NCBI RefSeq assembly: GCF_003953935.1
Contig: NZ_RXLQ01000007.1
Coordinates: forward strand, 62,001-126,000
Length of the DNA stretch: 64,000 bases
Direction of reading: 5' to 3'
Source: Massilia atriviolacea
GTDB taxonomy: Bacteria > Pseudomonadota > Gammaproteobacteria > Burkholderiales > Burkholderiaceae_D
The stretch's first letter is position 1. The number at the start of each line of letters is the position of its first letter. The notes under the pieces were generated by a model. The model saw only the letters and a program-made list of their open reading frames with translations. It had not been told where the DNA came from and did no database searches. The translations under genes were made by a program, and so were the position numbers. Shown one piece after another: positions 2,501 through 57,560 of this stretch.

Positions 2501-2947
2501 ATGCGCAGGTTCTCGATTGTACTGACGCCATTGCTGCTGGCCGGCTGCGTCAAGGGTTCGGCCACCTACTATATTAACGAGAGCAGCAACGAGCACGTGA
2601 TCACCGTGCGCGCCGAGCAGGAGTACTTCTGGAAAAAGGAAATGACCCTGACCCTGGTCGCCTCGCACATGCCCGAATGCCAGCGCGCATTTCCGATGGA
2701 GAGCGTGGCGCTGGACGAGGTGTCGGTCGAATTGTTTTCGAACGGCGACGATGTGTATTCGGTGCGCTCGGGCGGCGAATTGATGCAGATCGACACGCTC
2801 ACCTGCGTGCAACTCGACGAGCCGAAGCCGACCGCGCTCGGACAACCGGTCGGCACCTTTTTCATCGATGAAAAAACCGTCAGCTTCGAAAAGGCGGCCG
2901 CACCCGCAGCGGGCGCCCCTGCCCCCGCTCCCGCCGCCGGGGGCTGA
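2501..2947 (+). CDS. Small lipoprotein of unknown function
   Basis: A 148-residue predicted lipoprotein. The N-terminus MRRFSIVLTPLLLAGC is a compact signal peptide with lipobox LAGC, so processing at Cys-16 and lipid anchoring are expected. The mature part contains two further cysteines (in PECQRAF and TLTCVQL) that could form a disulfide, and it ends in an Ala-Pro-rich tail of about 20 residues. No catalytic motif is visible. The start follows an AGGGAAG element at about 2490. An upstream in-frame ATG at 2471 would bury the signal peptide and is rejected. Confidence 0.68.
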   Translation: MRRFSIVLTPLLLAGCVKGSATYYINESSNEHVITVRAEQEYFWKKEMTLTLVASHMPECQRAFPMESVALDEVSVELFSNGDDVYSVRSGGELMQIDTLTCVQLDEPKPTALGQPVGTFFIDEKTVSFEKAAAPAAGAPAPAPAAGG

Positions 2948-2949
2948 CC

Positions 2950-3273
2950 TCAGCGCCGGCCCAGCATCTTGTGCAGGGCCGCGACGGCGGCAGGCCGGCC
3001 GACCCGCTCCAGCGCGGCCTCCAGCAACATCGGCTCGCCGGGCCGCAGCGCCGTCCACTGGGTAAAGTATTCGTGCACCGTGCGCCAGGGCGGAAAGCCC
3101 GCCGGCACGCCGCGCCAGGCGCTGCCGGTTTCCAGCAGATACAACACGGCGCAAAACACATCGTACAGATCGTGCTTGCGCGGCCGCGTCCTGCGGCGTG
3201 CCGCTTCCAGCATGCCGCGTACGGATTCAAACTCTTCGCGCGAAACGTCGCTCGCGAACTCGGGTCGTGCCAT
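2950..3273 (-). CDS. Solo IS5-type transposase N-terminal domain (DUF4096-like)
   Basis: A 107-residue protein whose centre (RKHDLYDVFCAVLYLLETG, then WRGVP, FPPW and TVHEYFTQW) matches the N-terminal DUF4096 domain of IS5-family transposases. The catalytic DDE part is absent: the frame stops at 2950 and the next DNA is the lipoprotein gene on the other strand, so this is either a domesticated DNA-binding domain or an insertion-sequence remnant. The ATG at 3273 is preferred; an in-frame TTG at 3288 would add five residues. A GAGG Shine-Dalgarno element lies inside one arm of a perfect 8-bp inverted repeat (3283-3301). No terminal inverted repeats of an IS5 element are apparent nearby. Confidence 0.65.
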   Translation of the reverse strand: MARPEFASDVSREEFESVRGMLEAARRRTRPRKHDLYDVFCAVLYLLETGSAWRGVPAGFPPWRTVHEYFTQWTALRPGEPMLLEAALERVGRPAAVAALHKMLGRR

Positions 3274-6791: not shown

Positions 6792-7610
6792 ATGTTCGGC
6801 AGCACAGTTCTTGAAGTCGCGGTCGGCCTGACCTTTTGCTACGCGACGGTGGCATTGATTGTCAGCACGGTGCAGGAAGCGCTGGCGTCGGCGCTGAAAA
6901 TGCGCGCACGCGGGCTGCTCGAAGGCATCAAGAGCATGCTCAACGACCCGAATTTCAACGCCATGGCGCGCACCGTGTACGCGCACGCGCTGGTCAATCC
7001 GCATGGCAACCCGGCCCAGCCGGCGCAGGACCATGTCGGCACGAAGCCGTCCTACATCAAGCCCGAGCATTTCGCGATTGCCCTGATCGATGCGGTGCAG
7101 ACGATTCCGGGCGACTACGACCAGCTCGGGCGCGACATCGACGCCATTGCCGATCCGCAGATCAAGAGTGCGCTGCAGAGCATCTACCAGCGCGCCGGCG
7201 GCGACATGGCGCGCTTCCATGCATCGGTGGAAAGCTGGTTCGACAGTGCGATGGAGCGCGTGTCGGCCGTCTACAAACGGCGCTCGATGATGATCAGCGT
7301 GCTGCTGTCGCTGCTGCTGGCGGCGCTGTTCAATATCGACAGCATCCACCTGTTCCGTACGTTGTGGGCGCATCCCTCGCTGGCGGCGCAGATCGGCGCG
7401 GCGCCGGACACGCTCAATCCGCAGGCGCTGCAGATGTTGTGGGCCTTGCCGATTGGCTGGGAACGATTTCCGCCGGTGCTGGACCGGCAATTCGCGCTCA
7501 GTGTCGCGGGCTGGATGCTGACCGCCTCGACTGCGCTGTTCGGCGCCCCGTTCTGGTTCGACCTGATGAAGCGCACGGTGCAGATACGGGGTACCGGACC
7601 CAAACCATAG
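6792..7610 (+). CDS. Membrane protein of unknown function
   Basis: A 272-residue protein preceded by a good GGGAGA ribosome-binding site. It has an N-terminal hydrophobic helix (about residues 8-30, VGLTFCYATVALIVSTV), a soluble middle of roughly 125 residues, a central helix (MMISVLLSLLLAALFNIDSI, about 160-180) and a final hydrophobic stretch (about 236-258). The segment STVQEALASALKMRARGLLEGI just after the first helix looks like a conserved amphipathic part. I do not recognise a named function. The gene runs towards nudC, and a large palindrome separates the two stop codons. Confidence 0.65.
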   Translation: MFGSTVLEVAVGLTFCYATVALIVSTVQEALASALKMRARGLLEGIKSMLNDPNFNAMARTVYAHALVNPHGNPAQPAQDHVGTKPSYIKPEHFAIALIDAVQTIPGDYDQLGRDIDAIADPQIKSALQSIYQRAGGDMARFHASVESWFDSAMERVSAVYKRRSMMISVLLSLLLAALFNIDSIHLFRTLWAHPSLAAQIGAAPDTLNPQALQMLWALPIGWERFPPVLDRQFALSVAGWMLTASTALFGAPFWFDLMKRTVQIRGTGPKP

Positions 7611-7630
7611 AACCACCCCCCACAGTGTCC

Positions 7631-7675
7631 AGCCCGTGTCCACCCCGGTGCCTGGCACCGGGGTGGACACGGGCT
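7631..7675. repeat. REP-like perfect palindrome between convergent genes
   Basis: A near-perfect palindrome: 22-base arms (7631-7652 and 7654-7675) around a single central T. The left arm contains gtccaccccggtgcc, which closely matches the core gtccacttcggtgcc that surrounds the RAYT gene at 56-57 kb, so I place it in the same REP family. It sits between two convergent genes, and its last base is the first base of the nudC stop triplet. It would form a very stable hairpin in RNA from either side and may serve as a bidirectional terminator or mRNA stabiliser. Confidence 0.8.
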
Positions 7676-8487
7676 CAGGCTGGGCGGTGGGCGTCGACCA
7701 GGACGGAGGAAATGGAGAAATGCGGCACGCGCTCGGGCCATTCGTCATGCGGCCCGAACCAGCGCGCTTCGATGATTTCACTCGGGTCGATCCGGATCTC
7801 GCCGTCGAGGTAGTCGGCAGTGAAGGCGATCATCAGGGAATGGGGAAACGGCCACGACTGGCTAGAGAAATACTGCAGGTTATGGACCCGCAAACCGACT
7901 TCTTCGAAGACCTCGCGGTGCACCGCTTCTTCCACCGATTCGCCCGCTTCGAGGAAACCGGCCAGCGGCGTGAAGCGCTTGGCGGCCGAGGCGGCGTGCA
8001 ACGCCAGCAAGACATGGTCGCCCTTGCGGATCAGCACCATCATCGCCGGCGAGATGCGCGGATACGCCATCATCCCGCAGGCGCCGCACACAAAGCAGCG
8101 CTCGCCCGCCTTGAGCTGCATCGGCTGGGCGCAGGCGCCGCAGTAACGGTGCGTGCGCGCCCATTCGGCTATCTGGCTGGCACGGCCCGCCACACTCAGC
8201 AAGCCTTCGTCGAGCGCGCCGAGCAGGGAGCGCATGCTGCGCCATGCATAACCGGGCAAGGCCAGCTCGTCGCTATCGCGCCAGACGGTCTGGCAATAGC
8301 GCTCACCCAGAAGACCGACCGCATGCGGCGTCCCAGCGATCTCCAGACCGGCCAGCTCTCGCGCCGAAGGCAGCGCCAGGTCGGCCTCGCGCAGCAACAG
8401 GCGGCTGCCGTGGAAGACGAAGGTGACAGGATCAGGGTGGGATTGCGCCGTAATCAGCGGCGTAAAACTTGAGGGCATGTGCAGCAT
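7675..8487 (-). CDS. nudC: NADH pyrophosphatase NudC (NAD-cap decapping enzyme)
   Basis: A 270-residue Nudix hydrolase. Residues 115-137 hold the zinc ribbon (YCGAC ... CFVCGACG). The Nudix box spans about residues 177-199 (GFLEAGESVEEAVHREVF and on) and fits GX5EX7REUXEEXGU with all catalytic acids. SQSWPFPHS at about 209-217 is the NudC-specific motif after the box. Family knowledge: NudC hydrolyses NAD(H) to NMN(H) and AMP and removes NAD caps from RNA. The exact start is uncertain: ATG codons at 8487, 8478 and 8526 are in frame; the 8478/8487 starts fit the family length, and the N-terminal extension to 8571 is probably not translated. Confidence 0.88.
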   Translation of the reverse strand: MLHMPSSFTPLITAQSHPDPVTFVFHGSRLLLREADLALPSARELAGLEIAGTPHAVGLLGERYCQTVWRDSDELALPGYAWRSMRSLLGALDEGLLSVAGRASQIAEWARTHRYCGACAQPMQLKAGERCFVCGACGMMAYPRISPAMMVLIRKGDHVLLALHAASAAKRFTPLAGFLEAGESVEEAVHREVFEEVGLRVHNLQYFSSQSWPFPHSLMIAFTADYLDGEIRIDPSEIIEARWFGPHDEWPERVPHFSISSVLVDAHRPA

Positions 8488-55800: not shown

Positions 55801-55802
55801 AT

Positions 55803-55994
55803 GTCCACATCGGTGCCAGGTCTGACTTTCGGACACGAGCTCATCCGACAGGGGCAACATGTCCACATCGGTGCCAGGTCTGACTTTCGGACACGAGCTC
55901 ATCCGACTGTCCACATCGGTGCCAGGTCTGACTTTCGGACGCGAGCTCATCCGACAGGGGCAACATGTCCACTTCGGTGCCAGGTCTGACTTTT
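55803..55994. repeat. Four REP-like cores, irregularly spaced
   Basis: The core gtccac(a/t)tcggtgccagg starts at 55803, 55861, 55909 and 55967; the first three read acat and the last actt. Between cores lies tctgactttcggacacgagc and variable cat-ccgacaggggcaa DNA. Spacings of 58, 48 and 58 bases and the substitutions show that these are older or separately duplicated than the following 123-bp units. Confidence 0.85.
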
Positions 55995-56486
55995 GTCCAC
56001 TTCGGTGCCAGGTCTGACTTTTGGACACGAGCTCATCCCGTAGGCGCAAAATTCCCCTGGCCGGCACTGCGGTCGAGGTGTACGTCGGTTCAGGACTTTG
56101 CCAGGATGGCAGCTTCTGTCCACTTCGGTGCCAGGTCTGACTTTTGGACACGAGCTCATCCCGTAGGCGCAAAATTCCCCTGGCCGGCACTGCGGTCGAG
56201 GTGTACGTCGGTTCAGGACTTTGCCAGGATGGCAGCTTCTGTCCACTTCGGTGCCAGGTCTGACTTTTGGACACGAGCTCATCCCGTAGGCGCAAAATTC
56301 CCCTGGCCGGCACTGCGGTCGAGGTGTACGTCGGTTCAGGACTTTGCCAGGATGGCAGCTTCTGTCCACTTCGGTGCCAGGTCTGACTTTTGGACACGAG
56401 CTCATCCCGTAGGCGCAAAATTTCCCTGGCCGGCACTGCGGTCGAGGTGTACGTCGGTTCAGGACTTTGCCAGGATGGCAGCTTCG
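55995..56486. repeat. Four 123-bp tandem repeats carrying the 3' end of the RAYT gene
   Basis: Units start at 55995, 56118, 56241 and 56364. They are identical except for one base in the last unit (aaaatttccc instead of aaaattcccc). Each begins with the REP core gtccacttcggtgccagg and ends with tttgccaggatggcagcttc. In the fourth unit those last 28 bases are the 3' end of the RAYT coding sequence including its stop. The other three units therefore contain orphan copies of the gene's end. The unit length is a multiple of three, which produces long spurious open frames on both strands. Confidence 0.92.
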
Positions 56487-57328
56487 GATCGTAATGCGGC
56501 TTCGTAGCGGTGCACCGCCCGGCTGACGGTCTTGTACGACACGCCGAAATGTGCGCCGATCTGTTTCATCGTGAACGCAGTGCTGCGGAATGCACGCGCC
56601 ATGGCCTCGTCGCGCTCCGGAAATTGACTTTGGAATTGCGTGAGAGACATTACAGAGATGCAACGCTGCAGCCTGACGATGTCGGAAGATGCACGGCTGG
56701 CGACAGCGTGAACCTCTTCCATCGACAGTGGCGTACCCAGAAGCAAGGCATGCCTGGCATCCTTAAGCGGACTATCCGCGCCAATCCCGCGTGCGACAAA
56801 GTCACGGTAGGCAGCCACCGCCGCGCCGGGCGTTGCAGCGAGTTGTCCCAGCAGCCATTGCGTGTCGAGCCAGGACGGCGCATGGACATGGTTCACCGTC
56901 CAGCGGTAGCTGCTCCATTCCCAATCCTGAGGCGAGGCGACAAGCCCCGCGCGAACCGGGTTGAGCACGATATAGCGCGCGACCTCCAGCAAATAGCTTT
57001 CTTTCTGTACCAGCAGGGCGTGATACCGGCCTTGAAACAAATGCCCGACAGTGCCGTGGCGCCGGTTGAAGCCGCGCGCATAGCTGCCGTTGAGCTGCCC
57101 CATGAACGCCGACAGCCTGGCATCGATGGTTTCGATGAGCAAATGAAAATGATTTCCCATCTGACAGTAAGCATGCACGACGCTGTTGTTGCGTGCGCAC
57201 GCATCACGCAGTACACCTAGCCAGGCGCGGCGGTCAGCGTGATCCAGGAAGATCGGATGGCGACGATTTCCACGTGCGGTAACGTGGTATAGCGCCCCGG
57301 GGAATTCGAGTCTGAGCGGTCTGGTCAT
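56459..57328 (-). CDS. REP-associated tyrosine transposase (RAYT, IS200/Y1 type)
   Basis: A 289-residue protein. LEFPGALYHVTARGNRR at the start and YCQMGNHFHLLIE (HUH-type metal motif, His-60/His-62) mark the Y1 transposase domain of the RAYT class; YARGFNRRHGTVGHLFQGRYHA is the region of the catalytic tyrosine. A C-terminal extension with a helix-turn-helix (KQIGAHFGVSYKTVSRAVHRYE, about 250-275) is typical of one RAYT group. RAYTs process REP hairpins. It is intact, flanked by inverted REP arrays and probably mobilises the related repeats across the genome. Confidence 0.92.
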   Translation of the reverse strand: MTRPLRLEFPGALYHVTARGNRRHPIFLDHADRRAWLGVLRDACARNNSVVHAYCQMGNHFHLLIETIDARLSAFMGQLNGSYARGFNRRHGTVGHLFQGRYHALLVQKESYLLEVARYIVLNPVRAGLVASPQDWEWSSYRWTVNHVHAPSWLDTQWLLGQLAATPGAAVAAYRDFVARGIGADSPLKDARHALLLGTPLSMEEVHAVASRASSDIVRLQRCISVMSLTQFQSQFPERDEAMARAFRSTAFTMKQIGAHFGVSYKTVSRAVHRYEAALRSEAAILAKS

Positions 57329-57410
57329 CGAGCGACTCTAGCAACAGTTTTTCGCTCGCTGCTTGAGCACACGCAGCATCTAGCCACATTGCGATGATCA
57401 GGACGGATTT

Positions 57411-57560
57411 AATGGATGAGTGCGTGTCCGATTGTCAGACCTGGCACCGAAGTGGACATTAATGGATGAGTCCGTGTCCGATTGTCAGACCTGGCACCGA
57501 AGTGGACATTAATGGATGAGTCCGTGTCCGATTGTCAGACCTGGCACCGAAGTGGACACG
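57411..57560. repeat. Three 50-bp tandem repeats with inverted REP cores
   Basis: Units at 57411, 57461 and 57511 read aatggatgagtccgtgtccg then attgtcagacctggcaccga and agtggacatt, with one substitution in the first. The core is the reverse complement of that on the other side of the RAYT gene, so the gene is bracketed by REPs in opposite orientation. Confidence 0.9.

Follow-up and report, generated by a model that had tools for sequence, protein, structure and literature searches.

Background

Tandem clusters of repetitive extragenic palindromic (REP) sequences, or of the inverted REP pairs known as REPINs, together with their flanking DNA have already been described (PMC3116915, PMC3733652). 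Here, we report on such arrays in the genome of Massilia atriviolacea and in particular on a locus at which four 123-bp tandem units adjoin the gene for a REP-associated tyrosine transposase (RAYT). This locus is located in a 64,000-nucleotide stretch of contig NZ_RXLQ01000007.1 (positions 62,001 to 126,000 of the forward strand, assembly GCF_003953935.1), which is referred to as the window. Statements on the four papers cited here refer to excerpts of these papers.

In Pseudomonas fluorescens SBW25, near-identical REPINs and their flanks are found in tandem, with some of these clusters adjoining RAYT genes, and the authors inferred a second mechanism for cluster formation (PMC3116915). The SBW25 units are whole REPINs with flanks, in most cases with unrepeated DNA between them, and the excerpts do not mention a fixed edge (PMC3116915), whereas many of the units reported here are single or partial REPs that end at one base. 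In the GTAG/CGTC families of REPs, large clusters reiterate singletons or dimers along with flanking DNA of variable length, again with no fixed edge described in the excerpts (PMC3733652); in contrast, the REPs reported here carry no GTAG tag and tandem arrays are common, with 60 tandem core pairs of period 24-54. The bacterial interspersed mosaic elements of E. coli (BIME-2) also form tandem REP arrays, but in alternating orientation (PMC2817692, PMC8266576), while the 123-bp array is head-to-tail. The transposase TnpA_REP has been shown in vitro to cut single-stranded REP DNA 5' or 3' of the stem-loop, between C and T or between C and A; this dinucleotide is chosen through a guide 5' of the hairpin, GTAG, and the cut leaves a 5'P-Tyr and a 3'OH able to prime synthesis or to attack (PMC8266576). 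Among open-licence papers, we found no occurrence of the REP core reported here in any of four spellings, no description of arrays with one fixed edge and free starts, and no relevant paper on anchored REP duplication or one-ended HuH tandem transposition.

Results

The genome that contains the window (7.36 Mb, a draft of 80 contigs) was found to carry 270 exact copies of the REP core GTCAGACCTGRCACC; the reversed control was found 0 times. Read by eye, the REP consists of a potential small hairpin, TGTCA-GACC-TGRCA, and the tail CC-GNNGTGGACA. The consensus 5' of the palindrome is GTGTCCGAAT and not the GTAG tetranucleotide of GTAG-tagged REPs, and the TGTCC located 5' of the hairpin is complementary to GGACA. 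Two inverted REPs form the basic unit, as in REPINs; most sites examined in relatives have an inner minus/plus REP pair 47-118 bp apart, often 62-84, with the exception of pairs separated by 227 bp (L144) and 2,478 bp (L108) and of four sites with a single orientation only (L102, L112, L124 and L125). The tandem REPs of alternating orientation that characterize BIME-2 were not found in the 123-bp array.

Most tandem arrays around these REPs were shown to have a fixed edge at GGACA and scattered starts. For this analysis, 39 REP-containing stretches, i.e., the window and 38 fetched stretches (taken from incomplete hit lists, so that some REP loci are missing), were searched for tracts of at least 2 tandem copies near a REP core, with the edge not being a criterion. 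A total of 96 tracts with periods from 11 to 196 bp were found, and at least one tract was present in 33 of the 39 stretches; these tracts are not independent, as several come from one locus in some cases and some composite arrays were read on both strands. A right edge between +10 and +12, counted from CACC, was found in 70 of the 96 tracts (exactly at +10 in 49), whereas the left edges were scattered, with the best 3-nt window taking in only 23/96. A right edge at +10 to +12 was found at 27 of the 33 loci and in tracts of all period lengths, including 21/23 tracts with periods of 9-20 bp, 12/17 with periods of 21-40 bp and 25/33 with periods of 41-80 bp, while the preference was weaker for periods of 81-260 bp (12/23). 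When ambiguity of matching bases was allowed for, 78 of the 96 edges abutted GGACA, as compared to a background of 287/16,863 positions (1.7%) in the same arrays. Among these 78 edges, 69 were at +10 to +12, and at least one GGACA edge was present at 30/33 loci.

Comparisons of the REPs themselves showed a boundary at the same position. For 201 pairs of consecutive same-orientation REPs, rightward similarity ended at +10 in 77 cases and at +11 in a further 33, and conservation across the 69 outermost REPs, some of which have a partial copy directly after them, dropped from 1.6 bits at +9 to 0.6 at +10. Tandem clusters with a period of at least 16 numbered 62 in the 34.4 kb near REPs (within about 200 bp) versus 1 in 247.7 kb elsewhere, in a control that covered the REP stretches and the entire window. 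Some arrays show other arrangements. A 131-bp unit present five times on the reverse-complement strand of L007 (approximately 2568-3223) violates the edge rule, with its edge at +6 (GAAGTA), and the composite REP arrays L083 (C1:234500-240000) and L086 (C4:113500-119000), with periods of 150 and 158 bp, have unusual distances between edge and REP.

At the RAYT locus, the following features were identified:

56459..57328, minus strand: RAYT gene, 289 aa, Y1 (HuH) transposase domain (open reading frame; Pfam and NCBIfam profiles)
55994..56485, minus strand: four 123-bp tandem units, each running from the 3' coding end of RAYT to GTGGACA, the edge of the REP (repeat comparison)
55966..56021, minus strand: 28-bp tandem pair, partial REP ending in GGACA; its second copy doubles as the REP of the first 123-bp unit
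55802..55965, minus strand: older REP units in tandem (58, 48 and 58 bp), all with a GGACA end (TGTCC on the plus strand); the 48-bp pair was parsed by the tract parser, the GGACA end of the 58-bp units was judged by eye
57409..57558, plus strand: three 50-bp tandem REP units on the far side of the RAYT gene, in the opposite orientation, ending in GTGGACA
55801..55802, no strand: left outer edge; TGTCC starts at 55802
57558..57559, no strand: right outer edge; last base of GGACA at 57558

The gene product matches Pfam Y1_Tnp (PF01797; 52 bits versus a cut-off of 23) and NCBIfam NF047646 (REP_Tyr_transpos; 88.5 bits versus a cut-off of 80), and the gene is flanked by inverted REPs (8 in minus and 3 in plus orientation) that are abundant genome-wide, as is characteristic of the RAYT/TnpA_REP class. 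Its C-terminal region showed weak matches to helix-turn-helix models, all below the cut-off. The translation contains NHFHLL and VARYIVLNP, which may represent the HuH motif and the catalytic tyrosine; a PDB sequence search with the RAYT found no match at E up to 0.1. The nearest named relatives are from Massilia sp. H-1 (62% identity) and Pseudoduganella guangdongensis (47%).

The parser found four tracts at this locus (periods 123, 48, 28 and 50), each of which stops at +10, directly after GGACA. The 123-bp units (55994-56116, 56117-56239, 56240-56362 and 56363-56485) had been described in an earlier note as four copies differing in one base; this was borne out, with the frame shifted by one base to the left. 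Units 1-3 do not differ at all, while the gene-proximal unit 4 has a C to T change at 56423 (99% matches by TRF). As the note had claimed, unit 4 is the true end of the RAYT gene; the coding end is indeed copied in each unit, although with 27 bases including the stop codon instead of 28. In the orientation of the REP, which is the same in all units, each unit runs from these 27 coding bases through the stop codon and a spacer to a REP ending in GTGGACA. The array consists of exactly 4.00 copies, with a period-123 match extension of 0 bases on either side; its gene-side junction has zero shared bases and the start point is otherwise unmarked. The count of four is provisional, since the genome is a draft and the 492 bp of near-identical units exceed a short read.

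Overall, these data support the note's claim that a unit containing a REP has recently expanded in tandem beside a RAYT gene. A role for the gene end as such, in contrast, was not supported, as similar arrays are found in most of the REP stretches while the genome has only four Y1 transposase genes. The RAYT-side array is one among dozens of REP arrays and is not special to the transposase. The note had also suggested a search for the 123-bp unit elsewhere in the genome; among the best 150 of 242 matches, the whole unit occurred only as the four local copies, and the next-best matches did not go beyond its first 58 bases, which correspond to the REP. Another array, with a 179-bp unit close to a stop codon at L030, was considered as a second copied gene end and rejected, as no coding bases were seen in the unit. 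Elsewhere in the window (approximately 7592-7694), a REP remnant consists of two REP tails head to head, which form a near-perfect palindrome; the counterpart in the sister species (G007) is an inverted REP pair.

Further analysis showed that the REP core is present in 26 of 392 family genomes. Among the eight genomes in which tandem cores of period 24-54 were counted, 35 were found in G007, 9 in G060, 7 in G009 and 4 in G167, in addition to the 60 of M. atriviolacea, while none were found in G003, G381 and G247. An edge near the 3' side of the REP is common to most of the relatives compared, while its position and sequence vary; right edges were located at +5 to +9 in 11/11 tracts of G009, none of them at GGACA, and at +8 to +12 in 4/4 tracts of G167, and the single stretch examined in G381 contained no tract. 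In G060, three 35-bp tandem REP units were observed on the reverse-complement strand of L131 (approximately 521-625); the 5' tag in this genome is a different one, AAATGTCC, and three relatives of the RAYT are present (51-56% identity), one of which has an internal stop.

The RAYT of the sister species is syntenic, adjoining the same TonB-receptor gene, and is 83% identical over 115 residues. It breaks off after approximately residue 115 (L050 1841-1965) into other DNA near a contig end, and the interrupting DNA is probably an insertion sequence (IS). Despite this interruption, the genome retains 146 REP cores. On the left side of this locus, the stretch passes into other DNA near the contig end, with no REP core. 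In G003, G009, G016 and G002, neither a RAYT nor a REP core was found between the subtilase gene and the receptor gene. At 20 sites common to M. atriviolacea and the sister species, matched through flanking DNA on one or both sides, REP number or spacing differed at all 20 and M. atriviolacea had more REP cores at 19, although the counts for the sister species may be low due to a fragmented assembly in which some stretches end at contig ends. At two further sites of the sister species, the counterpart in the window has no REP core. Some contigs of the sister species start or finish near REPs, and two of them (L111 1-584 and L116 1-111) share the same first 111 nt, which are joined to a REP at GTCAGACC. 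One frame in L111 resembles the C-terminal end of an IS110-type transposase, and an IS therefore probably targets these REPs.

The edge was also compared with empty sites in relatives. At the RAYT locus, joining the flanks at both GGACA edges left a gap of approximately 3 nt with respect to the RAYT-free site of G003 and of approximately 4 nt with respect to that of G009, while the joined flanks aligned poorly across the site in G016 and G002. At other loci (21 comparisons, in 3 of which the relative had a REP core; L024 was queried but did not align), the edge did not fit (L019, L025, L031 and L012), was off by about a dozen bases (L013) or gave a mixed picture (L037), and the notion that GGACA is the plain outer terminus of an inserted element was dropped as a general claim.

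Discussion

The edge footprint suggests that a site-specific cut, perhaps by the transposase, drives outward growth of REP arrays. The pattern requires that the position be fixed on the 3' side of the REP and free on the 5' side. The fixed end would be created by a cut or stop of the strand immediately behind GGACA, and could then be re-copied or re-joined to any 5' point, whether within the hairpin or over 100 bp away, so that a tandem copy of the chosen stretch is inserted at the edge. Because the REPs usually occur as inverted pairs whose GGACA edges face outward, arrays would extend outward on both arms. At the RAYT locus, one event may have begun 27 bases inside the gene and produced the first 123-bp duplicate, with recombination between identical units or slippage then giving rise to four copies. 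The gene end would be part of the unit because duplications copy the 5' side of the REP, which is where RAYT lies. The process appears directional, as the earlier note had proposed; a start in the gene for a gene-related reason is not supported, and the constant end is the GGACA edge of the REP.

A cut by RAYT at the edge is favoured because TnpA_REP is known to cut near the hairpin and because TGTCC is complementary to GGACA, a pairing that would be expected of an IS200/IS605-type guide. A guide-chosen cut 3' of the hairpin, as reported for TnpA_REP, would put a 3'OH near the edge (PMC8266576); in intact REPs, however, the edge falls between GGACA and a C and the 5' tag is GTGTCCGAAT, unlike the dinucleotides and GTAG guide known for TnpA_REP (PMC8266576). 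We infer that RAYT makes this cut on single-stranded REP DNA; the cut strand, the joining step and the later growth by recombination are likewise putative. The favoured explanation, in which a RAYT cut on the 3' side of the REP anchors successive duplications and recombination or slippage then raises the copy number, has in our estimate about an even chance of being correct. A more specific version, in which RAYT cuts at GGACA through pairing with TGTCC and the freed 3' end drives a one-ended tandem duplication distinct from insertion at new sites, is put forward more tentatively, with the balance somewhat against it. Snap-back copying of the 5' arm of the REP was considered for the sequence beyond GGACA; by eye, it can account for some internal junctions but fails at the outermost REPs checked, and it was rejected.

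Several observations weigh against a cut by RAYT at this edge. The edge lies between A and C, unlike the sites of the studied enzymes; 18 of the 96 tracts have their edge away from GGACA, and among the 78 GGACA edges there are 9 at other distances. For the window's own REP, the single-stranded DNA fold was no better than that of shuffled sequences (z 0.97), and the predicted fold of a consensus-like REP is an outer stem and not the small hairpin. In comparisons with empty sites, L019, L025, L031 and L012 keep extra sequence outside the edge. In the sister species, where stretches were partly picked for tandem cores, the edge is less tightly defined, being at +5 to +8 in 36/50 tracts and rarely GGACA (3/50), and the two tracts of G060 end at +4 and +18. 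Finally, G381 lacks tandem cores of period 24-54 despite its RAYT (51% identity) and its 102 REP cores, while G009 has tandem cores and no close RAYT was found in it (best match 42%; 36% in G003, which also has no close RAYT). A link between presence of RAYT and presence of tandem arrays was thus rejected.

The earlier note had named slippage and RAYT as possible drivers. Of these two, RAYT-driven duplication is the favoured reading, whereas the lack of shared bases at many junctions and of anything comparable at other hairpins makes plain slippage less likely. RAYT-independent slippage or template switching, with the polymerase stalling on the GGACA side of an extended stem and resuming upstream, is nevertheless an alternative to be taken into consideration, although we judge it rather unlikely. 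Stalling at one position would account for a constant edge, and the outer stem predicted for a consensus-like full REP does include TGTCC/GGACA (z -1.99); moreover, anchored tracts are found in G009, in which no close RAYT was found, as well as in the sister species, whose RAYT orthologue is interrupted. On the other hand, among 55 tracts with 2 to fewer than 3 copies and an edge at +10 to +12, 30 had no extra matching base at the junction (7 had one, 5 had two, and the remainder were mostly partial third copies). In addition, none of 30 other hairpins (stem of at least 9, loop of 3-8) had a tandem cluster nearby, and edges in the sister species still fall within a few bases even though the GGACA arm is mostly missing.

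Excision by RAYT of single-strand circles, each containing a REP and a variable flank, with insertion at the GGACA edge of a neighbouring REP, would yield an identical product, and a circular-intermediate model for REP arrays is cited in the excerpts of PMC3733652. However, excision would have to be precise at one end of the segment and random at the other, many units are only partial REPs (for example 16 bp, from mid-hairpin to edge), and the complete 123-bp unit was found, among the best 150 matches, only beside its source; we thus consider this explanation improbable. Unequal homologous recombination between pre-existing REPs alone seems more improbable still. While the identity of units 1-3 and high-copy arrays, such as the six 28-bp copies at L030, suit later growth by recombination, an array formed in this way would start and finish with a REP, whereas the RAYT-side array ends in the gene without one; recombination is disfavoured for the first duplication because of these array ends. 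An assembly artefact, as might be suspected from an 80-contig draft with an array longer than a short read and from sister-species contigs that start or end near REPs, is very improbable, as edges agree at 27/33 loci with different units, units vary within arrays and an artefact would not select GGACA, so that only the copy number might be wrong.

Conclusions

A base-exact edge common to arrays at about thirty loci likely marks a cut or stop site in vivo. This edge names a candidate oligonucleotide target for RAYT, and new anchored duplications could serve as an assay for the role of RAYT. If the proposed mechanism is true, it would represent a simple bacterial route to short tandem duplications of REP-adjoining DNA and a self-renewing outward growth of REPs that would be able to copy any adjoining DNA, gene pieces included.
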